A stretch of DNA of 64,000 nucleotides from contig NZ_CP018049.1 of the NCBI RefSeq assembly GCF_002934065.1, positions 370,501-434,500 of the forward strand. Direction: 5' to 3'. The position numbers and the translations under genes were made by a program. The notes under the pieces were generated by a model. The model did not search any database and was not told the origin of the DNA. It saw nothing but the letters and a program-made list of their open reading frames with translations. How positions within the stretch are numbered: the first letter of the stretch is position 1; the number at the start of each line of letters is the position of its first letter. This document shows positions 27,461 to 42,160 of this stretch, piece by piece. Origin of the DNA: Pseudomonas orientalis (GTDB taxonomy: Bacteria > Pseudomonadota > Gammaproteobacteria > Pseudomonadales > Pseudomonadaceae).

Positions 27461-28825
27461 TTAGCTCAACAAATCCCTCAAGACCTGGGTGAATGCCCGG
27501 CTGCTGTCTTCTTCGCCAGCATGACGCCCATCGCGCACCACCCACTGGCCGTTGACCAGTACATCACGCACTTGCCGATCACCACCGGCAAACAGCCAGC
27601 GATTGAGAATCCCGTCTTCACTGGCCGTGGCCAGGTACGGATCGTTACCGTCCAGCACGATCCAGTCCGCCCGCTTGCCCACTTCCAGGCGGCCAACCGG
27701 CTGCCCCAGCGCTTGGGCGCCACCGTCCAGCGCCGCATCGAACAGCGTGCGGCCCACCATCGGCTGGTCGTCGCGATACAGACGATTGCGCCGTTGATCG
27801 CGCAGGCGCTGGCCGTATTCCAGCCAGCGCAATTCTTCCACCACGCTCAGTGACACATGGCTGTCGGAGCCGATACCCATGCGGCCGCCCTGGGCCAGAA
27901 AATCCACTGCCGGGAAAATGCCATCACCCAGGTTGGCTTCGGTGGTCAGGCACAAACCGGCAATCGCCCGGCTCCTGGCCATGCGCGTCACTTCATCGGA
28001 GTCGGCATGGGTGGCATGAACCAGGCACCAGCGTTCATTCACGTCGACATTGTCATACAGCCACTGCAATGGGCGTTTGCCGCTCCAGGCCAGGCAGTCG
28101 TCGACTTCCTTTTGCTGTTCGGCAATGTGGATGTGCACCGGACAAGCCGTGTCGCTGGCGGCCAGCACTTGCTTGATCTGCTCGGGCGTGACTGCCCGCA
28201 GGGAGTGGAAACACAGGCCCAGGTGCTGCGCAGGTTGCGCGGCAAGCATCGGCTGCAGGCGCGCCTGCAAATCCAGGTAGTTTTCGGTGCTGTTGATAAA
28301 CCGGCGCTGCCCGTCGTTGGGGGCCTGGCCACCGAACCCCGAATGCGTATAAAGCACCGGCAGCAGGGTCAAGCCGATCCCGCTGCTGGCGGCTGCCTGG
28401 CTGATCTGGCGCGACAGCTCTGTGCGGTCGGCATAGGGCTGGCCGCTGACGTCGTGGTGTACATAGTGAAACTCGGCCACCGAGGTATAGCCGGCCTTGA
28501 GCATTTCGATGTACAGCTGGCGGGCGATGACCTGCAACTGGTCCGGGCTGATTTTGCCGACCATGCGGTACATCAGGTCGCGCCAGGTCCAGAAACTGTC
28601 GTTCGGATTGCCTGCCACTTCAGCCAGGCCCGCCATGGCGCGCTGGAAGGCGTGGGAATGCAGGTTCGGCATGCCGGCCAGTACCGGCCCCCTGAGCCGC
28701 TCGGCGCCGTCTGCCGTGGCATTGGCCTCTACCTTCGTCAGCCGCCCATCGGCGCTGATTTCAAGACGTACATCATTGGCCCATCCATCAGGCAGCAGCG
28801 CGCGTTCGGCAAAGAAAGCAGACAT
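27461..28825 (-). CDS. hutF: formimidoylglutamate deiminase
   Basis: HutF converts N-formimidoyl-glutamate to N-formylglutamate and ammonia, the fourth step of the five-step histidine pathway. The 454-residue cytoplasmic amidohydrolase has the metal motif HSHAFQRAM near 60 and later GLCFHS, HIAEQ and CLVHATHAD. It is divergent from hutC; a HutC-like palindrome lies between them. Start 28825 (ATG) is preferred to TTG 28831. Its presence with hutG defines the route through formylglutamate rather than the one-step HutG formiminoglutamase. Confidence 0.94.
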   Translation of the reverse strand: MSAFFAERALLPDGWANDVRLEISADGRLTKVEANATADGAERLRGPVLAGMPNLHSHAFQRAMAGLAEVAGNPNDSFWTWRDLMYRMVGKISPDQLQVIARQLYIEMLKAGYTSVAEFHYVHHDVSGQPYADRTELSRQISQAAASSGIGLTLLPVLYTHSGFGGQAPNDGQRRFINSTENYLDLQARLQPMLAAQPAQHLGLCFHSLRAVTPEQIKQVLAASDTACPVHIHIAEQQKEVDDCLAWSGKRPLQWLYDNVDVNERWCLVHATHADSDEVTRMARSRAIAGLCLTTEANLGDGIFPAVDFLAQGGRMGIGSDSHVSLSVVEELRWLEYGQRLRDQRRNRLYRDDQPMVGRTLFDAALDGGAQALGQPVGRLEVGKRADWIVLDGNDPYLATASEDGILNRWLFAGGDRQVRDVLVNGQWVVRDGRHAGEEDSSRAFTQVLRDLLS

Positions 28826-28854
28826 GATCAAGTCACCCCGGTCGTGTGTTTATT

Positions 28855-28933: not shown

Positions 28934-29683
28934 GTGCCGACTCCGCCTGCCAAGTCTTCGCTGGCTGCCCACATGGACGAAAGTCCGGCGCCCTTGTATG
29001 CCCGCGTCAAACAGATGATCAGCCAGCAGATCCTCAACGGCAACTGGCCGCCCCATTACCGCGTGCCGTCGGAGAGCGAGCTGGTCAGCCAACTGGGCTT
29101 CAGCCGCATGACCATCAACCGCGCGTTGCGTGAGCTGACGGCCGAAGGGTTGCTGGTGCGCATGCAGGGTGTGGGTACGTTCGTCGCCGAGCCCAAGAGT
29201 CAGTCGGCGCTGTTTGAAGTGCACAACATTGCCGATGAGATCGCCTCCCGTGGCCATCGCCATACGTGCCAGGTCATTACCCTGGGCGAGGAAGCGGCCG
29301 GTTCCGAACGCGCCGTTGCCCTGGAAATGCGCGAAGGCGGGCGGGTGTTTCACTCGTTGATCGTGCATTTCGAAAACGACATTCCGGTGCAGATCGAAGA
29401 CCGTTTCGTCAACGCCCTGGTCGCCCCGGAATACTTGCAGCAGGATTTCACCCAGCAAACGCCCTACGCCTACCTCAACCAGGTGGCCCCGCTGACCGAA
29501 GGCGAGCACGTGGTTGAAGCGATCCTCGCCGATGCCGCCGAATGCAAGCTGCTGCAGATCGAAGCGGGCGAGCCCTGCCTGCTGATTCGCCGGCGCACCT
29601 GGTCCGGCCGCCAGCCGGTCACGGCAGCGCGCCTGATTCACCCCGGTTCCCGGCACAGCCTCGAAGGACGCTTCAGTAAATGA
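28934..29683 (+). CDS. hutC: histidine utilisation repressor HutC
   Basis: HutC is a GntR-family (HutC/FarR subgroup) repressor induced by urocanate. The 249-residue protein has an N-terminal winged helix (about 20-85; SRMTINRALRELTAEGLLVR is the recognition region) and a C-terminal UTRA ligand-binding domain. GTG 28934 follows AAGGA by 7 nt and aligns with the known start of pseudomonad HutC (VPTPPAKS); an upstream reading extends far into hutF antisense and is not real. hutD follows with a 4-bp overlap. Confidence 0.94.
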   Translation: MPTPPAKSSLAAHMDESPAPLYARVKQMISQQILNGNWPPHYRVPSESELVSQLGFSRMTINRALRELTAEGLLVRMQGVGTFVAEPKSQSALFEVHNIADEIASRGHRHTCQVITLGEEAAGSERAVALEMREGGRVFHSLIVHFENDIPVQIEDRFVNALVAPEYLQQDFTQQTPYAYLNQVAPLTEGEHVVEAILADAAECKLLQIEAGEPCLLIRRRTWSGRQPVTAARLIHPGSRHSLEGRFSK

Positions 29684-30632: not shown

Positions 30633-32318
30633 GTGACCGATTTTTCGAAAGCAAGGCCTACAAAATACCGTGACGTCGAAATCCGCGCCGCCCGCGGTAA
30701 CACGCTCACCGCCAAAAGCTGGCTGACCGAAGCGCCGCTGCGCATGTTGATGAACAACCTCGACCCGCAAGTGGCCGAGAACCCCAAGGAACTGGTGGTA
30801 TACGGCGGTATTGGTCGTGCGGCGCGCAACTGGGAATGCTACGACCAGATCGTCGAGAGCCTCACCCACCTCAATGACGACGAAACCCTGCTGGTGCAAT
30901 CGGGCAAGCCGGTAGGCGTGTTCAAGACCCACAGCAACGCCCCGCGCGTATTGATCGCCAACTCCAACCTGGTGCCACACTGGGCCAGTTGGGAACACTT
31001 CAACGAACTGGATGCCAAGGGCCTGGCCATGTACGGCCAGATGACCGCCGGCAGCTGGATCTATATCGGCAGCCAGGGCATCGTCCAGGGCACCTACGAA
31101 ACCTTCGTTGAAGCCGGTCGCCAGCATTACGATTCGAATCTCAAAGGCCGTTGGGTGCTTACCGCAGGTCTGGGCGGCATGGGTGGCGCGCAACCACTGG
31201 CCGCGACCCTGGCCGGTGCCTGCTCGTTGAACATCGAGTGCCAGCAGGTCAGCATCGATTTCCGCTTGAACAGCCGCTATGTCGACGAGCAAGCCACCGA
31301 CCTCGACGACGCCCTGGCGCGCATCGCCAAGTACACCGGGGAAGGCAAAGCCATCTCCATCGCCCTGCTGGGCAACGCCGCCGAAATTTTGCCTGAGCTG
31401 GTCAAGCGTGGCGTGCGTCCGGACATGGTCACCGACCAGACCAGCGCCCACGACCCGCTCAACGGTTACCTGCCGGCCGGCTGGACCTGGGACGAATACC
31501 GCGCCCGCGCCAAGACTGAGCCCGCCGCCGTAATCAAGGCAGCCAAGCAGTCGATGGCCGTGCACGTCAAAGCCATGCTGGAGTTCCAGAAGCAGGGCAT
31601 CCCGACGTTCGACTACGGCAACAACATCCGCCAGATGGCCCAGGAAGAGGGCGTGGAAAACGCCTTCGACTTCCCGGGTTTCGTACCGGCCTACATCCGC
31701 CCGCTGTTCTGCCGTGGCATCGGCCCGTTCCGTTGGGCGGCGCTGTCCGGTGACCCGCAGGACATCTACAAGACCGACGCCAAAGTCAAAGAGCTGATCC
31801 CCGACGACGCCCATCTGCACAACTGGCTGGACATGGCCCGCGAACGCATCAGCTTCCAGGGTTTGCCGGCACGTATCTGCTGGGTCGGCCTGGGCCAGCG
31901 CGCCAAACTTGGCCTGGCCTTCAACGAAATGGTGCGCAGCGGCGAATTGTCGGCACCGGTGGTGATCGGCCGTGACCACCTCGACTCCGGCTCGGTCGCG
32001 AGCCCGAACCGCGAAACCGAATCCATGCAGGATGGCTCCGACGCCGTGTCCGACTGGCCGCTGCTCAACGCCTTGCTCAACACCGCCAGCGGCGCGACCT
32101 GGGTTTCGTTGCACCACGGTGGCGGCGTCGGCATGGGCTTCTCGCAGCACTCGGGCATGGTGATCGTGTGTGACGGCACCGACGAAGCGGCCGAACGCAT
32201 TGCTCGGGTGCTGCATAACGATCCGGCGACCGGGGTGATGCGTCACGCGGATGCGGGTTACCAGATCGCTATCGATTGCGCCAGGGAACAGGGCCTGAAT
32301 CTGCCGATGATCAAGTAA
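30633..32318 (+). CDS. hutU: urocanate hydratase
   Basis: HutU converts urocanate to 4-imidazolone-5-propionate with tightly bound NAD+. The 561-residue enzyme matches the family: NAD-binding [10 protein letters not shown] near 183, the catalytic-site cysteine in [10 protein letters not shown] near 416, and [13 protein letters not shown] near 510. The start is GTG 30633 after GAGGAG (spacing 7). It heads the hutU-permease-XWV-H1-H2-I-G series and is preceded by a sigma-54 promoter. Confidence 0.96.
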
Positions 32319-32458: not shown

Positions 32459-33904
32459 ATGGCTGCGAACGACACCACCCCGTTGATCGAAAGGCGTTCG
32501 ATCGACTACATCCCCGAAGCGGAACGACATGGTCGTCTACTGAGCCAGTTCACCCTGTGGATGGGGGCCAACCTGCAAATCACCGCGATTGTCACCGGGG
32601 CCCTGGCCGTGGTGCTGGGCGGTGATGTGTTCTGGTCGTTGATCGGTCTTTTGATCGGTCAACTGATCGGCGGCGGCGTCATGGCGTTGCATGCGGCGCA
32701 GGGGCCCAAGCTTGGCCTGCCGCAGATGATCTCCAGCCGGGTGCAGTTCGGCGTGTATGGCGCGGCCATCCCGATCGTGCTGGTGTGCCTGATGTACCTG
32801 GGCTTTACCGCCACCGGCACCGTGTTGTCCGGGCAGGCGCTGGGCCAGTTGTTCGGGGTCAGCGACAGCGTGGGCATCCTGATCTTTGCCAGTGTCATCG
32901 TGCTGGTCACGGTGCTTGGTTACCGGGTGATCCATTTCATTGGGCGTGTTGCCAGCGTCATCGGCGTGATCGCCTTTGTCTACCTGTTCAGTCGCCTGAT
33001 GAGCCAGACCGATGTTGGCGCACTCCTGCAGATCCGTCACTTCAGCTGGAGCAGTTTTCTGCTGGCGGTGTCGCTTGCGGCCTCCTGGCAGATCGCCTTC
33101 GGCCCCTACGTTGCGGACTATTCGCGTTACCTGCCGAGCAAGACGTCATCGGTGAAAACCTTCTTCGCCGCGGGTGCGGGCTCAGTGATTGGTGCACAGG
33201 TGGCGATGGTGCTCGGTGTGTTTGCCGCCGCCATGTCCAACGGCCAATTCGCCGGGCATGAAGTGGCCTACATCGTTGGCTTGAGCGGTACGGGGGCCAC
33301 TGCGGCGTTGCTGTACTTCAGCATCGCGTTCGGCAAGGTCACCATCTCCACGCTCAATTCCTACGGCAGCTTCATGTGCATTGCGACCATCATCAGCGGT
33401 TTTCGTGGCCGCCTTGAGGTCACCCGTTTGCAGCGCCTGGTGTTCGTGCTCGTCATCGTCGGTGCGGCAACCCTGATCGCGTTGCTCGGCCAGCACTCGT
33501 TCCTCGGTGCGTTCAAGTCGTTCATCCTGTTCCTGCTGGCGTTCTTCACGCCCTGGAGCGCGATCAACCTGGTGGATTACTACTGCATCACCCGCGAGCG
33601 CTACGACGTGCCGGCCTTGTCCGACCCGAACGGACGCTACGGTCGCTGGAACCTGTTGGGGATCAGCGTCTATGTGTTCGGCGTGCTGGTGCAGTTGCCG
33701 TTCATCTCAACCAAGTTCTACACGGGGCCCCTGGTGGCTGCGCTGGGGGACGTGGATATTTCCTGGATCATCGGCCTGGTACTGCCTGCAGCCGTGTATT
33801 ACGTGTGTGCGAAAAAATGGCACGGCACGGTGCCCGATCATCTGATCCTGCCGAAAGAGCAGGGCGCTTTACTCACAACAGACGGGCTGCCTGCGCAAGC
33901 CTGA
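32459..33904 (+). CDS. NCS1-family permease, probably the urocanate transporter
   Basis: The 481-residue protein has about 12 membrane segments and belongs to the cytosine/purine/allantoin (NCS1) family; landmarks are TLWMGANLQITAIVTGA near 30 and QMISSRVQFG near 85. In P. fluorescens SBW25 the permease at this place in the hut locus has been called HutTu and imports urocanate; I assign it by position and family. ATG 32459 follows AGAGG. It is separated from hutU by a REPIN. Confidence 0.85.
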   Translation: MAANDTTPLIERRSIDYIPEAERHGRLLSQFTLWMGANLQITAIVTGALAVVLGGDVFWSLIGLLIGQLIGGGVMALHAAQGPKLGLPQMISSRVQFGVYGAAIPIVLVCLMYLGFTATGTVLSGQALGQLFGVSDSVGILIFASVIVLVTVLGYRVIHFIGRVASVIGVIAFVYLFSRLMSQTDVGALLQIRHFSWSSFLLAVSLAASWQIAFGPYVADYSRYLPSKTSSVKTFFAAGAGSVIGAQVAMVLGVFAAAMSNGQFAGHEVAYIVGLSGTGATAALLYFSIAFGKVTISTLNSYGSFMCIATIISGFRGRLEVTRLQRLVFVLVIVGAATLIALLGQHSFLGAFKSFILFLLAFFTPWSAINLVDYYCITRERYDVPALSDPNGRYGRWNLLGISVYVFGVLVQLPFISTKFYTGPLVAALGDVDISWIIGLVLPAAVYYVCAKKWHGTVPDHLILPKEQGALLTTDGLPAQA

Positions 33905-33972: not shown

Positions 33973-34938
33973 ATGAAAATGCATAAGACCCTGCTGACCA
34001 CGTTGCTGTCTGCGGGCTTGCTGGCAAGCGCCGGCGCCCAGGCGGCCGGCTGGTGCGAATCCGGCAAGCCGGTGAAATTCGCCGGGCTGAACTGGGAAAG
34101 CGGCATGTTGCTCACCGACATCCTGCAAACCGTGCTGGAGAAAGGCTACGACTGCAAAACCGACAGCCTGCCGGGCAACTCCATCACCATGGAAAACGCC
34201 CTGGGCAGTAATGACATCCAGGTGTTTGCCGAGGAGTGGGTGGGCCGCAGCGAAGTCTGGAACAAGGCCGAGAAGGCCGGCAAGGTCGTCGGCGTCGGCG
34301 CGCCGGTGGTTGGCGCGGTTGAAGGCTGGTACGTGCCGCGCTATGTGATCGAAGGTGACGCCAAGCGCAAGCTGGAAGCCAAGGCGCCTGACCTGAAGAA
34401 CATCGCTGACCTGGCCAAGTACGCCGCCGTGTTCAAGGACCAGGAAGAACCGTCCAAGGGCCGCTTCTACAACTGCCCGGCCGGCTGGACCTGTGAACTG
34501 GACAACAGCGAAATGCTCAAGAGCTACGGCCTGGAAAGCACCTACACCAACTTCCGCCCCGGCACCGGCCCGGCGCTGGACGCGGCGGTACTGTCGAGCT
34601 ACAAGCGCGGCGAGCCGATCCTGTTCTACTACTGGTCGCCGACGCCGCTGATGGGCCAGGTGGACCTGGTCAAGCTGGAAGAAAAACCGGGCGTGGATAA
34701 GCGCGTGAGCATCAAGGTCGGCCTGTCCAAGACCTTCCACGAGCAAGCGCCGGAACTGGTGGCCGTGCTGGAAAAGGTCAACCTGCCCATCGACCTGCTG
34801 AACCAGAACCTGGGCCGCATGGCCAAGGAACGGATCGAGTCGCCGAAGCTGGCGAAAATTTTCCTCAAGGAACATCCTGAAGTCTGGCACGCCTGGGTGA
34901 GCGAAGACGCCGCCAGGAAAATCGACGCGGCCTTGTAG
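33973..34938 (+). CDS. hutX: periplasmic binding protein of the hut ABC transporter
   Basis: The 321-residue protein has a signal peptide (about 1-25, cleavage after AQA) and an OpuAC-type substrate-binding fold of the glycine betaine/choline/histidine class. It is followed by a permease and ATPase of the same class. In this setting HutXWV is taken to import histidine; family knowledge supports quaternary amines as an alternative ligand. ATG 33973 gives the signal peptide. Confidence 0.88.
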   Translation: MKMHKTLLTTLLSAGLLASAGAQAAGWCESGKPVKFAGLNWESGMLLTDILQTVLEKGYDCKTDSLPGNSITMENALGSNDIQVFAEEWVGRSEVWNKAEKAGKVVGVGAPVVGAVEGWYVPRYVIEGDAKRKLEAKAPDLKNIADLAKYAAVFKDQEEPSKGRFYNCPAGWTCELDNSEMLKSYGLESTYTNFRPGTGPALDAAVLSSYKRGEPILFYYWSPTPLMGQVDLVKLEEKPGVDKRVSIKVGLSKTFHEQAPELVAVLEKVNLPIDLLNQNLGRMAKERIESPKLAKIFLKEHPEVWHAWVSEDAARKIDAAL

Positions 34939-35009: not shown

Positions 35010-35861
35010 ATGTTTCCCGAGAGTTTTACGTTTTCCATCGCCGACTGGGTCAACGGTTGGGTGGACTCGCTGGTCACCAACTACGGCGATGTGTTCCGGC
35101 ACATCTCCGACACCCTGCTGTGGGCCATCGTCAATCTGGAAGGGCTGCTGCGCGCGGCGCCCTGGTGGTTGATGCTGGCCATCGTTGGCGTGATCGCCTG
35201 GCATGCCACCCGCAAGGTGGTGACCACGGCCGTGATAGTCGGTTTGTTGTTCCTCGTCGGTGCGGTCGGCCTGTGGGACAAACTGATGCAGACCCTGGCG
35301 CTGATGATGGTCGCCACGGTGATCTCGGTGCTGATCGGCATTCCCCTGGGCATCCTTTCCGCGCGCAGCAATCGCTTGCGCTCGGTGCTGATGCCGTTGC
35401 TCGACATCATGCAAACCATGCCCAGCTTCGTGTACCTGATCCCGGTGCTGATGCTGTTTGGCCTGGGCAAGGTACCGGCGATTTTCGCCACGGTCATTTA
35501 CGCCGCGCCGCCGCTGATCCGCCTGACCGACTTGGGCATTCGCCAGGTCGATGGCGAAGTCATGGAAGCCATTAACGCTTTCGGTGCCAACCGCTGGCAG
35601 CAATTGTTCGGCGTGCAACTGCCGTTGGCTCTGCCGAGCATCATGGCGGGCATCAACCAGACCACCATGATGGCGTTGTCGATGGTGGTGATCGCTTCGA
35701 TGATCGGCGCGCGTGGTTTGGGTGAAGATGTCCTCGTCGGCATCCAGACCCTCAACGTCGGGCGTGGCCTGGAGGCCGGTCTGGCGATTGTGATTCTTGC
35801 AGTGGTCATCGACCGCATTACCCAGGCCTATGGTCGTCCACGGCATGAGGCGAGCAAATGA
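35010..35861 (+). CDS. hutW: permease of the hut ABC transporter
   Basis: The 283-residue inner-membrane protein has an N-terminal hydrophilic part and about 6 membrane segments. The BPD_transp_1 EAA loop is near 185-215 ([27 protein letters not shown]). It belongs to the OpuAB/ProW-type permeases. It starts 71 bp after hutX and its stop overlaps the hutV start by 4 bp. Confidence 0.9.
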
Positions 35862-36682
35862 CTACCGTCAGCAAAATCGAAGTCAAAAACGTCTTCAAGA
35901 TCTTCGGCAACCGCTCCAGGGAAGCGCTGGCGCTGATTGGCCAGGGCAAGACCAAGGACCAGGTATTGGCCGAGACCGGCTGCGTGGTCGGCGTGAACGA
36001 CCTGTCCCTGAGCATCGCTACCGGTGAAATCTTTGTGATCATGGGCCTGTCCGGCTCCGGCAAGTCCACCCTGGTGCGTCACTTCAACCGCCTGATCGAC
36101 CCCACCAGCGGCGCGATCCTGGTGGATGGCGAAGACATCCTGCAACTGGACATGGAAGCCCTGCGTCAATTCCGTCGCCACAAGATCAGCATGGTGTTCC
36201 AGAGCTTCGGCCTGTTGCCCCACAAAAGCGTGCTCGACAACGTCGCCTATGGCCTGAAAGTGCGTGGCGAAACCAAGCAGGTCTGCGCCGAACGCGCCCT
36301 GCACTGGATCGAAACCGTGGGCCTCAAAGGCTATGAAAACAAATACCCGCACCAGCTCTCCGGCGGCATGCGTCAACGTGTGGGCCTGGCCCGCGCACTG
36401 GCGGCCGACACCGATATCATCCTGATGGACGAAGCCTTCAGCGCCCTCGACCCGCTGATCCGCGCCGAGATGCAGGACCAGTTGCTCGAGCTGCAAAAGA
36501 CCCTGCACAAGACCATCGTGTTTATTACCCATGACCTCGACGAGGCCGTGCGCATCGGCAACCGCATTGCGATTCTCAAGGACGGCAAGCTGATCCAGGT
36601 CGGCACGCCGCGCGAGATCTTGCACTCGCCGGCGGATGAGTATGTGGATCGCTTTGTTCAGCGGCGGGCGGCGGTGGTCTGA
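35858..36682 (+). CDS. hutV: ATPase of the hut ABC transporter
   Basis: The 274-residue protein has Walker [10 protein letters not shown] near 61-69, the signature LSGGMRQRV near 167 and Walker [13 protein letters not shown] near 187. The N-terminal extension before the nucleotide-binding domain matches the ProV/OpuAA class. No CBS domains follow, so it is the short form. It overlaps hutW by 4 bp. Confidence 0.92.
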
Positions 36683-36818: not shown

Positions 36819-38327
36819 ATGCCCCAGGCAACAACAATCATCATCGCCGACACCCCAATGCGCTGGCAGGACGTCGCCGCCGTCGCCCGCCACGGCGCAG
36901 TGCTCGAACTTTCGAGCCAGGCTTGGGCACGGATCGACAATGCCCAGGCCGTCGTGCAGTGCATCGTCGCCAGCGGCGAACGCGCGTATGGCGTGAACAC
37001 AGGCCTGGGCGCGCTGTGCAACGTGTCGCTGGAGGGCGAGCAACTGAGCCAGTTGTCGCGCAACACCTTGCTCAGCCACGCCTGCGGCGTCGGCCCTGTC
37101 TTGAGCGACGAGCAGACCCGCGCGATCATCTGCGCCGCCATCATCAACTACAGCCACGGCAAATCCGGCCTGCATCGGCAAGTGGTGCAGGCGCTGCTGG
37201 CGCTGCTCAACCACGGCATCACGCCCCAAGTACCGTCCCAGGGCTCGGTGGGCTACCTGACCCACATGGCCCATGTCGGCGTGGCGCTGCTCGGCGTCGG
37301 CAACGTCAGCTATCGCGGCCAGGTTGTGACCGCACAAGAAGCCTTGGCCGCCGAAGGTTTGCAGCCCGTCGTCCTGGGCGCCAAGGACGGCCTGTGCCTG
37401 GTCAACGGCACGCCGTGCATGACCGGCCTGAGCTGCCTGGCCCTGGCCGATGCGCATCACTTGCTGCAATGGGCCGACGTGATCGGCGCCATGAGTTTCG
37501 AAGCCCAGCGCGGCCAGATCGATGCCTTCGACGCAGAAATCATTGCCCTCAAGCCCCATGCGGGCATGCAGGAAGTCGGGCGTAACCTGCGCGCCTTGCT
37601 CGACGGCAGCGAAGTGATCGCCACCAGCCGGGACATCCGTACCCAGGACGCCCTGAGCATCCGCTCGATCCCGCAGATCCACGGCGCGGCGCGCGATCAG
37701 GTGGCGCACGCCACCCGCCAGATCGAGACCGAACTCAACAGCGCCACCGACAACCCGCTGGTCCTCGGCACGCCGGACAACTACCGCGTAGTGTCCCAGG
37801 CCAACCCCCACGGCCAGTCCGTGGCGCTGGCGGCCGACCTGCTGGCGATTGCCATGGCCGAAATCGGCTCGGTGGCCGAACGTCGCCTGGACCGCCTGAT
37901 CAACCCGCACGTCAGCGGCTTGCCGGCGTTCCTGGTGAGCAACCCCGGGGTCAACTCCGGGATGATGATCGTGCAGTACGTCGCCGCGTCGTTGTGCGGG
38001 CAGAACCGCCAATTGGCGCAACCGGCGGTGCTCGACAACTTCGTCACCTCGGGCCTGCAGGAAGACCACTTGAGCATGGGCACCAATGCGGCGCTCAAGC
38101 TGCATCAGGTATTGCTCAACGTTACCCAGATTCTGGCCATCGAATACCTGCTGGCGGCCCAGGCGTTCGAGTTTCTCAAGGGCCAGCGCTTCGGCGCCGG
38201 CACCGACCGCGCCTGGCGCCTGCTGCGCGAAGTGGTTCCGGCTTACGAGCAGGACCGCTGGCTGGCGCCGGATATTGCCGCGGCCGCCGACCTGATCAAA
38301 GACACCGCATCACCGAATTTGTATTGA
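36819..38327 (+). CDS. hutH1: histidine ammonia-lyase paralogue lacking the MIO tripeptide
   Basis: The 502-residue protein has the full fold of the HAL/PAL family, with YGVNTGLG near 57, [10 protein letters not shown] near 194, [11 protein letters not shown] near 276 and the QEDHLSMG helix near 417. The Ala-Ser-Gly tripeptide that cyclises to the MIO cofactor is missing: where hutH2 reads [12 protein letters not shown], this protein reads GSVGYLTHM (codon 145 to 146). The catalytic Tyr280 position is also Leu279. Histidine deamination is thus unlikely. The frame is intact. It lies 34 bp before hutH2, in the same operon. Possible roles are a regulatory, binding or new lyase function. Confidence 0.9.
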
Positions 38328-38361
38328 ATGCCTAGAAGAACAATTCACAAGGAGAATGAAT

Positions 38362-39894
38362 GTGACTGCGCTAACCCTGATTCCAGGCCAACTGAGCCTT
38401 GCCCAACTGCGGGCCATCTACCAGCAGCCGGTAACCCTCAGCCTGGATGACAGCGCCACGGCGCAGATCGAAGCCAGTGTGGCGTGCGTGGAGCAGATTC
38501 TCGCCGAGAACCGCACCGCCTATGGCATCAACACCGGTTTTGGCCTGCTGGCCTCGACTCGCATTGCCAGCGAAGACCTGGAAAACCTCCAGCGTTCCCT
38601 GGTGCTGTCCCATGCCGCTGGGGTGGGTGAGCCGATCAGCGATGCGCTGGTCAGGCTGGTCATGGTGCTCAAGGTCAACAGCCTGAGCCGTGGGTTCTCC
38701 GGGATTCGTCGGCAGGTGATCGACGCGCTGATCGCACTGATCAACGCCGAGGTGTACCCGCACATTCCGCTTAAAGGTTCGGTCGGTGCATCCGGTGACC
38801 TGGCGCCGTTGGCCCATATGTCCCTGGTGCTGCTCGGCGAAGGCAAGGCGCGCTACAAGGGCGAATGGCTGGAGGCGACCGACGCGCTGAAAGTCGCCGG
38901 CCTGACGCCGCTGACCCTCGCCGCCAAAGAAGGCCTGGCCCTGCTCAACGGCACCCAGGTGTCCACCGCCTATGCCTTGCGCGGCCTGTTTGAAGGCGAA
39001 GACCTGTTCGCCGGCGCTCTCGCGTGCGGTGGCCTTACCGTGGAAGCGGTGCTCGGCTCGCGCTCGCCGTTCGACGCGCGGATTCATGCCGCACGCGGCC
39101 AACGTGGGCAGATTGACGCCGCTGCGGCCTATCGCGACCTGCTCGGTGAAAGCAGCCAGGTGTCCCAGTCCCACCAGAACTGCGACAAGGTGCAAGACCC
39201 TTACTCCCTGCGCTGCCAGCCGCAGGTCATGGGCGCCTGCCTGACCCAGTTCCGCCAGGCCGCCGAGGTGCTGGTGGTGGAGGCCAACGCCGTGTCGGAC
39301 AACCCGCTGGTGTTCGCGGCCGAAGGCGATGTGATTTCCGGCGGTAACTTCCACGCCGAGCCGGTGGCCATGGCGGCCGACAACATGGCGTTGGCGATTG
39401 CCGAAATCGGTTCGCTCAGTGAGCGCCGTATCTCGTTGATGATGGACAAGCACATGTCGCAACTGCCGCCGTTCCTGGTGGGCAATGGCGGGGTCAACTC
39501 CGGCTTCATGATCGCCCAGGTCACCGCTGCGGCGCTTGCCAGCGAGAACAAGGCACTGGCCCATCCCCATAGCGTCGACAGCCTGCCGACCTCGGCCAAC
39601 CAGGAAGACCACGTGTCCATGGCCCCGGCTGCGGGCAAGCGCCTGTGGGAAATGGCCGAGAACACCCGTGGCATTCTCGCTGTGGAATGGCTCTCCGCCT
39701 GCCAGGGCCTGGATCTGCGCGACGGCTTGAAAACCTCGCCCGCGCTTGAAAAGGCCCGTGGCCTGTTGCGTGACAAAGTGGCGTTCTACGACAAGGACCG
39801 CTTCTTCGCCCCGGACATCATCGCCGCCAGCGAACTGCTTGCCAGCCGCTGCCTGAATGAGCTGGTGCCGGCCAAGCTGCTGCCAAGTCTCTAA
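38362..39894 (+). CDS. hutH2: histidine ammonia-lyase
   Basis: HutH eliminates ammonia from L-histidine to give trans-urocanate, the first step of degradation. The 510-residue enzyme has the MIO-forming Ala-Ser-Gly in [15 protein letters not shown] near 139-153, YGINTGFG near 51, [10 protein letters not shown] near 193 and the [11 protein letters not shown] near 276 with catalytic Tyr. This is the functional lyase of the pair. GTG 38362 is chosen over ATG 38356 because AAGGAG (38349-38354) is then 7 nt away, and 510 residues matches P. putida HutH. Confidence 0.95.
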
Positions 39895-40142: not shown

Positions 40143-41348
40143 ATGAAAACCCTTTGGCAACACTGCCACGTGGCAACCATGGCCCAGGGCAAATACTCGA
40201 TTATCGAGGATGCCGCCATGGTGACTGCGGGCTCGCTGATCGAGTGGATCGGCCCGCGCAGCCAGGCGCCGACGGCGGATTACGCCCAGGTGCATGACCT
40301 GCAAGGCGCGTGGGTCACGCCTGGACTGATCGACTGCCACACCCACACCGTGTTCGGCGGCAACCGCAGCGGCGAATTCGAGCAGCGCCTTGAAGGCGTC
40401 AGCTACGCCGACATCGCGGCCCGGGGCGGGGGTATTGCCAGTACCGTGCGGGCCACCCGTGCTGCGACGGAAGATCAATTGTTTGCCAGTGCCGAAAAGC
40501 GCCTGCGCAGTCTTTTGCGCGACGGCGTGACCACGGTGGAGATCAAGTCCGGCTACGGCCTGGACCTGGCCAACGAACGCAAGATGCTGCGCGTGGCGCG
40601 GCGCCTGGGTGAAGCGCTGCCGGTGAGCGTGCGCGCCACCTGCCTGGCGGCTCATGCGTTGCCGCCGGAGTACAAGGACCGCGCCGATGACTACATCGAG
40701 CACATCTGCAATGAGATGCTGCCGGCCCTGGCCGCAGAGGGCCTGGTGGATGCGGTGGATGCGTTCTGTGAATACCTGGCGTTCTCCACCGAGCAGGTCG
40801 AGCGCGTGTTTAAAGTCGCCCGGCAACTGGGCTTGCCGGTGAAGCTGCATGCCGAGCAACTCTCGTCGCTGCACGGTTCCAGCCTGGCCGCGCGTTACCA
40901 GGCGTTGTCGGCGGACCACCTGGAGTTCATGACCGAGGAAGATGCCATCGCCATGGCCGCTGCCGGCACCGTTGCCGTGTTGCTGCCAGGGGCCTTCTAC
41001 TTCCTGCGCGAAACCCAATTGCCGCCGATGGACGCCCTGCGCAAACACGGTGTGAAGATTGCCATCGCCAGCGACCTCAACCCCGGCACTTCGCCGGCGC
41101 TGTCGGTGCGCCTGATGTTGAACATGGCCTGCACCCTGTTCCGCATGACCCCGGAAGAAGCCCTGGCCGGCGCCACGCAACATGCGGCTACCGCCTTGGG
41201 CATGGGCGACACCCATGGTTCGCTGGAAGTGGGCAAGGTCGCGGATTTTGTCGCCTGGCAGATCGATCGCCCCGCCGACCTGGCCTATTGGCTGGGTGGC
41301 GAGCTGGATAAACGCGTTGTGCGCCATGGCGTCGACGTCACTGTTTGA
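40143..41348 (+). CDS. hutI: imidazolonepropionase
   Basis: HutI hydrolyses 4-imidazolone-5-propionate to formimidoyl-glutamate. The 401-residue amidohydrolase has metal-binding HTHTVFGG near 67, KSGYGLDL near 138, KLHAEQLS near 236 and a late SDLNPGT with the metal aspartate. GGGAGG lies 7 nt before the ATG. The stop overlaps the ribosome binding site of hutG, so the two are coupled. Confidence 0.96.
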
Positions 41349-41359
41349 GGAGAAGCGTT

Positions 41360-42160
41360 GTGGATAAGGTTCTGACATTCAAACAAGGCCGCGTACCGCT
41401 GCTGATCAGCATGCCCCACGCCGGCCTGCGCCTGACGCCTGCGGTCGAGACCGGGTTGATCCCCGAGGCGCAAAGCCTGCCGGACACCGACTGGCATATT
41501 CCCTTGTTGTATGACTTTGCCGAGGAACTGGGCGCCAGCACCTTGGCGGCCGAGTATTCGCGGTTCGTCATCGACCTGAACCGGCCAGCCGATAACAAGC
41601 CGCTCTATGCGGGCGCCACCACCGGCCTGTACCCGGAGACGCTGTTCGATGGCGTGCCGTTGTTCCGTGAAGGGCAGGCACCGTCCGAGGCCGAGCGCGC
41701 CACCTACCTGCAGAAAATCTGGGGCCCGTATCACCGCACGCTGCAAGAAGAACTGGCGCGCCTCAAGGCCGAATTCGGCTACGCGCTGCTGTTCGACGCG
41801 CACTCGATCCGCTCGGTGATCCCGCACCTGTTCGAGGGCAAATTGCCGGACTTCAACCTCGGCACCTTCAATGGCGCCGCCTGCGATCCCGGACTGGCCG
41901 GCCAGCTGGAAGCCATCTGCGCCCGGCATCCTCAGTACACCCACGTGCTGAACGGGCGTTTCAAGGGCGGTCACATTACCCGCCACTACGGTAATCCGGC
42001 GCAGGATATTCATGCAGTGCAGTTGGAGTTGTGCCAGAGCACGTATATGGAAGAGGTTGAGCCGTTCCGCTATCGCCCGGACCTGGCCGAGCCGACCCAG
42101 GTGGTGTTGAAACAATTGCTGCAAGCCTTGCTGGCGTGGGGGCAAGCGCACTATCGATAA
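41360..42160 (+). CDS. hutG: N-formylglutamate deformylase
   Basis: HutG hydrolyses N-formylglutamate to glutamate and formate, the last step of the pathway. The 266-residue protein is an N-formylglutamate amidohydrolase with SMPHAGLRL near 15, FVIDLNRP near 70 and FDAHSIRS near 145. GTG 41360 is favoured because GAGGAGAAG ends 4 nt before it; starting at TTG 41345 would leave no ribosome site. Confidence 0.94.
   Translation: MDKVLTFKQGRVPLLISMPHAGLRLTPAVETGLIPEAQSLPDTDWHIPLLYDFAEELGASTLAAEYSRFVIDLNRPADNKPLYAGATTGLYPETLFDGVPLFREGQAPSEAERATYLQKIWGPYHRTLQEELARLKAEFGYALLFDAHSIRSVIPHLFEGKLPDFNLGTFNGAACDPGLAGQLEAICARHPQYTHVLNGRFKGGHITRHYGNPAQDIHAVQLELCQSTYMEEVEPFRYRPDLAEPTQVVLKQLLQALLAWGQAHYR

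Follow-up and report, generated by a model that had tools for sequence, protein, structure and literature searches.

A histidase-like protein lacking the MIO tripeptide in the Pseudomonas hut operon as a candidate hercynine trimethylamine-lyase

We examined a 64,000-nucleotide stretch of the Pseudomonas orientalis genome (assembly GCF_002934065.1, contig NZ_CP018049.1, positions 370,501 to 434,500; hereafter the window) that carries genes for histidine utilization, with hutU, a gene for an NCS1-family permease, hutXWV, hutH1, hutH2, hutI and hutG following one another in that order (Table 1). The binding protein HutX is related to those for betaines and DMSP, and all 98 homologues retain its cage tryptophans (W41, W89, W119 and W221). 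A third lyase is encoded elsewhere in the same genome, outside the window (L003; G000:C1:481229-482596), and scores best against a tyrosine ammonia-lyase model.

Table 1. Features of the hut locus, with positions counted from the first nucleotide of the window.
Feature	Position	Strand	Basis or remark
hutF, formimidoylglutamate deiminase	27461..28831	-	
hutC, hut gene repressor	28973..29683	+	
hutU, urocanase, consumer of the predicted product	30633..32318	+	
NCS1-family permease, probably urocanate transporter hutTu	32459..33904	+	family match; SBW25 operon in PMC8871633
hutX, periplasmic binding protein, glycine-betaine/proline/DMSP type	33973..34938	+	family match, homologue alignment
hutW, ABC permease, ChoW/ProW type	35010..35861	+	family match
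hutV, ABC ATPase, betaine/proline/choline family	35858..36682	+	passes ProV subfamily cut-off
hutH1, histidase/aromatic ammonia-lyase family protein (PF00221) lacking MIO; candidate hercynine trimethylamine-lyase	36819..38327	+	ORF, 502 aa
HutH1 MIO loop without Ala-Ser-Gly	37242..37271	+	codons 142-151; Y146 and H149 invariant in clade
HutH1 QDALSIR motif	37644..37664	+	Q276 and R282 kept; HAL Tyr280 replaced by Leu279
HutH1 Pro330 in place of HAL Phe329	37806..37808	+	alignment
hutH2, canonical MIO histidase	38356..39894	+	ASG loop present
hutI, imidazolonepropionase	40143..41348	+	
hutG, N-formylglutamate deformylase	41345..42160	+	

The hutH1 frame is open across its 502 codons and its product matches the PF00221 profile with 549 bits. 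A multiple alignment with HutH2 and other relatives places a gap of exactly three residues, in frame, at the Ala-Ser-Gly position of HutH1; it is bordered by Y146 (codon 37254-37256, following the residue 145 codon at 37251-37253), which corresponds to HAL D145, and the loop holds no other Xaa-Ser-Gly capable of MIO formation. In the same alignment the Tyr of QDPYSLR (HAL Y280) is Leu279 and HAL F329 is P330. The first-pass annotation had already described the exact loss of Ala-Ser-Gly, the Leu279 substitution and the intact frame, all of which agree with our alignment; its statement that the rest of the active-site shell is kept applies to Y57, H87, N196, Q276, R282, M383 and E415, but not to D145 and F329. 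The kept residues are the equivalents of Y53, H83, N195, Q277, R283, M382 and E414 in canonical HutH (P. putida, PDB 1b8f; HutH2 in the window), with which HutH1 shares the fold and the operon. In histidases Y53 is a candidate catalytic base, R283 and N195 lie on the carboxylate side and H83, M382 and E414 on the imidazole side, and the amine is surrounded by MIO, Y280 and F329. Read with these roles, which come from family knowledge, the alignment indicates that HutH1 keeps the imidazole, carboxylate and base residues and loses the amine side (MIO, D145, Y280 and F329). Such a loss of bulk at the amine site, with the imidazole and carboxylate sites retained, would be consistent with a histidine carrying a bulky amine. 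An AF2 model of HutH1 (pLDDT 91) superposes with a TM of 0.93 on HAL and 0.90 on ergothionase. Against the TIGR01225 hutH equivalog HutH1 scores 540.4 bits, passing the cut-off of 539.15 by only 1.25 bits, and automatic pipelines therefore call it a histidine ammonia-lyase.

HutH1 has orthologues in roughly two thirds of the 150 Pseudomonas genomes that were sampled. All 81 near orthologues from this genus share the MIO-less loop, letter for letter save for one A151S substitution, and GSVGYLTHM, Y57, H87, N196, Q276, L279, R282, P330, M383 and E415 are invariant in the 81 aligned sequences; the imidazole, carboxylate and base set (Y57, H87, N196, Q276, R282, M383 and E415) is also present in nearly the whole of the wider clade. 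In a quick tree of 45 family members, which has some long branches elsewhere, all 28 MIO-less proteins with a YxxH loop form one clade (support 100) apart from canonical HutH. This clade spans several proteobacterial families, Ala-Ser-Gly is absent from every member, and a sister group from other bacteria carries Ala at the F329 position. Median pairwise dN/dS was 0.105 for HutH1 and 0.058 for HutH2, values indicating that HutH1 is under purifying selection; its clade is ancient. These results cover two of the checks suggested in the first-pass annotation, universality of the loss among pseudomonads and dN/dS. Chance, and the sequencing error at 37251-37256 that it had named as a possible refutation, are excluded by the 81 loops and by the presence of orthologues in so many genomes. 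Recent decay of a hutH2 duplicate was also considered and rejected, given an identity between HutH1 and HutH2 of 38-39%, their separate clades and the purifying selection on HutH1.

We compared the surroundings of 56 non-redundant MIO-less loci with those of 20 hut loci having canonical HutH only. A betaine-type transporter (BCCT or HutXWV) lay within 6 kb at 33 of the MIO-less loci and at none of the 20 ordinary ones (p 2e-6), and within one family a BCCT gene was present at 14 of 15 MIO-less loci compared with 0 of 12 ordinary loci (p 7e-7), although both p-values are too small, as the loci share ancestry and their independence is overstated. Ancestry alone does not explain how unrelated transporter types swap at the same place: loci without hutXWV often have a BCCT gene in the position directly upstream of the lyase. 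These BCCT genes encode BetP homologues. A simple BCCT tryptophan pattern search gave no match among them because the cage is partly changed: in the alignment to BetP, the cage residues W373 and W377 are replaced by Ile and Tyr. Polar-amino-acid (PAAT) ABC transporters occur at 19 of the 56 loci, one of which also has a BCCT; these, about a third of the survey, say nothing about betaines. On the product side, hutU is present at 38 of the 56 loci and another hut gene at 11 more, so that the product is most simply urocanate; if urocanate arises by loss of trimethylamine, the betaine substrate would be hercynine. At two Pseudomonas loci (L103:11749-17028 and L104:6569-11396) the MIO-less lyase has a demethylase/GbcA-type Rieske oxygenase on one side and a reductase on the other. 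A search with one of the two oxygenases matched two structures of stachydrine demethylase, 4qup and 3vca, at E about 1e-117.

Five genomes of a single genus have the arrangement hutU, BCCT gene, lyase, hutI (with hutG also present in three of the five in the stretch read) and no histidase-type ASG lyase, leaving the HutH1-type protein as the only hut lyase. Their sole other MIO lyase has a different loop type; the one example scored fell far below the hutH cut-off and was best matched by the tyrosine ammonia-lyase model. Of 30 genomes tested for canonical HutH, 29 have it together with the MIO-less lyase, and the remaining one belongs to these five. HutH1 is therefore neither a stand-in for histidase nor dependent on canonical HutH, a partner that the five genomes do without while keeping the HutH1-type gene together with hutU, BCCT and hutI. 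Elsewhere too, members of the clade have a transporter of their own and no canonical HutH nearby, for example at L155, L157 and L110.

Several characterized systems bear on the function of HutH1. The original SBW25 hut paper is said to have called one hutH copy non-functional. In Sinorhizobium meliloti, HutXWV reportedly is a histidine transporter that also takes betaines, and a mutant in the hutH2 gene next to hutXWV reportedly grew more poorly on histidine; this operon resembles ours in gene neighbourhood, a betaine-type ABC transporter adjoining a histidase-like gene. By operon position (hutU, hutTu, hutXWV, hutH1, then hutH2), hutH1 of SBW25 is the same gene as that in the window, and the passages of the report that deal with it describe a second histidase dispensable for growth on histidine, without proposing a function, and ascribe to HutXWV a part in histidine uptake (PMC8871633). 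This dispensability fits a hercynine lyase. The first-pass annotation held that all members of the family need MIO; this is contradicted by the ergothionase of T. denticola (PDB 6s7j/6s7q), which has the same histidase fold and lacks MIO (PMC13405746). HutH1 matches 6s7j over its whole length at 29% identity, below its match to HAL, and the sequence match is very weak (22 bits) around residues 276-352. Ergothionase, which removes trimethylamine from ergothioneine, is a precedent for such elimination on a histidase fold without MIO, the electrophilic cofactor being unnecessary because trimethylamine is a good leaving group. The same chemistry on a histidine betaine is proposed for HutH1, with the difference that the ergothionase substrate bears a thione and that ergothionase is, as far as known, not in a hut operon.

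Taking the kept and lost residues together with the gene neighbourhoods, we infer with reasonable though not high confidence that HutH1 is an active, MIO-independent lyase of the histidase fold, most likely eliminating trimethylamine from hercynine to give urocanate. Hercynine (N-alpha-trimethylhistidine, or histidine betaine) would be imported by the betaine-type HutXWV encoded just upstream of hutH1. R282 and N196 would hold the carboxylate of the substrate and H87, M383 and E415 its imidazole, Tyr57 would serve as the base at the beta carbon, and the three methyl groups would fit into the room vacated by MIO, Y280 and F329, trimethylamine leaving without an MIO electrophile. The urocanate formed would pass to HutU, HutI, HutF and HutG and, by way of HutC, act as an inducer of the operon. 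Against this reading stand the part in histidine uptake ascribed to HutXWV (PMC8871633), the partly changed BCCT cage, the PAAT transporters at about a third of the loci, a 64-kb window with no obvious trimethylamine-using gene and perhaps the poorer growth on histidine reported for the Sinorhizobium hutH2 mutant. Our literature search found no paper linking hercynine to Pseudomonas or naming a hercynine lyase. The histidase label of HutH1 is probably wrong, and filing it there is unsupported because a defining feature, Ala-Ser-Gly and the MIO it forms, is missing; HutH1 differs from HutH moreover in its separate clade and its attached betaine transporter. Filing it as an ergothionase is likewise unsupported: HutH1 may work like one, the resemblance being of fold and overall sequence rather than of compared catalytic residues.

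Ergothioneine remains the main alternative substrate. HutH1 could be an ergothionase proper, releasing trimethylamine from ergothioneine or its sulfonate to give thiourocanate or a related acid; the common MIO-less fold and the identity and TM values given above speak for this, and ergothioneine, also a histidine betaine, would need a betaine-type transporter. We nevertheless consider it unlikely, since the sequence match to ergothionase is very weak around residues 276-352, M383, which is close to the ring in histidase, is kept, and the product-side neighbours are plain hut genes (HutU, HutI and HutG) together with HutC, no extra desulfurising gene of the kind expected for thiourocanate being seen in the window. 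Dimethylhistidine, an opine-like adduct or some other N-alpha-modified histidine or imidazole acid is a distinctly unlikely substrate. The demethylase-type Rieske oxygenases at two loci could supply partly demethylated compounds and PAAT transporters are found at a third of loci, but secondary and tertiary amines leave less readily than trimethylamine when MIO is lacking, and betaine-specific transporters dominate the informative loci.

That HutH1 has no catalytic role is very doubtful. Loss of MIO, frequent co-transcription with hutH2 and the dispensability of hutH1 on histidine in the passages cited (PMC8871633) would suit a dead pseudoenzyme that joins the HutH tetramer as a decoy or senses a ligand; against this, the base, carboxylate and imidazole residues are invariant, members of the clade have their own transporter away from canonical HutH (L155, L157 and L110), and the clade is also present in genomes devoid of a histidase-type ASG lyase. 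The first-pass annotation was right that HutH1 cannot be a histidase of the MIO-dependent kind and that it may catalyse another reaction, but a decoy or sensor tied to HutH2 is disfavoured because the clade is ancient, is often found away from canonical HutH and has coherent active-site residues. Highly improbable, finally, is a HutH1 that still eliminates ammonia from histidine without MIO, even though it passes the TIGR01225 cut-off and five genomes have no other hut lyase. To our knowledge, all histidases studied require MIO for efficient ammonia elimination. Canonical HutH is kept alongside in 29 of the 30 genomes tested, and SBW25 does not need hutH1 on histidine according to the same passages (PMC8871633).

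In roughly two thirds of the Pseudomonas genomes sampled, and in relatives from several other proteobacterial families, the gene in question is named a histidase. If HutH1 is indeed a hercynine lyase, the puzzle of why the hut operon contains a second histidase that can be dispensed with would be solved, a pathway by which bacteria convert hercynine to glutamate and trimethylamine would have been found, many automatic annotations would need correction, and the histidase fold would have been turned to MIO-free elimination by removal of exactly the cofactor tripeptide. The broader proposal, that HutH1 founds a widespread unrecognised family of hercynine trimethylamine-lyases and that some whole "histidine utilization" operons serve hercynine and not histidine, we regard as evenly balanced.

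Other lyases of interest were noted during the survey. The HutH1-type gene of an Erwinia plasmid (L155:8771-14880) is about 71% identical and is accompanied by a PAAT transporter of its own and by an NCS1 permease; no hutU was present in the 25 kb read. A second MIO-less group, with the loop GSVGYLAVEGH or GSVGYLGPEGH (L103:5855-7429, L105:4832-6412, L106:8194-9807 and L175:9986-11560), keeps Y280 and F329 in Pseudomonas and adjoins PAAT transporters; its members may be ergothionases or a new type of enzyme. MIO has been lost in a third way at L165:4513-6051, where the loop reads GSLG-AA-DLAQ and an adjoining gene encodes an OsmF-type glycine-betaine binding protein. On an Agrobacterium plasmid a further MIO-less lyase (GSVGYLIATSH; L174:11971-13518) is flanked on one side by an ABC transporter and on the other by genes for a CoA-transferase, a hydroxyacyl-CoA dehydrogenase and an enoyl-CoA hydratase.
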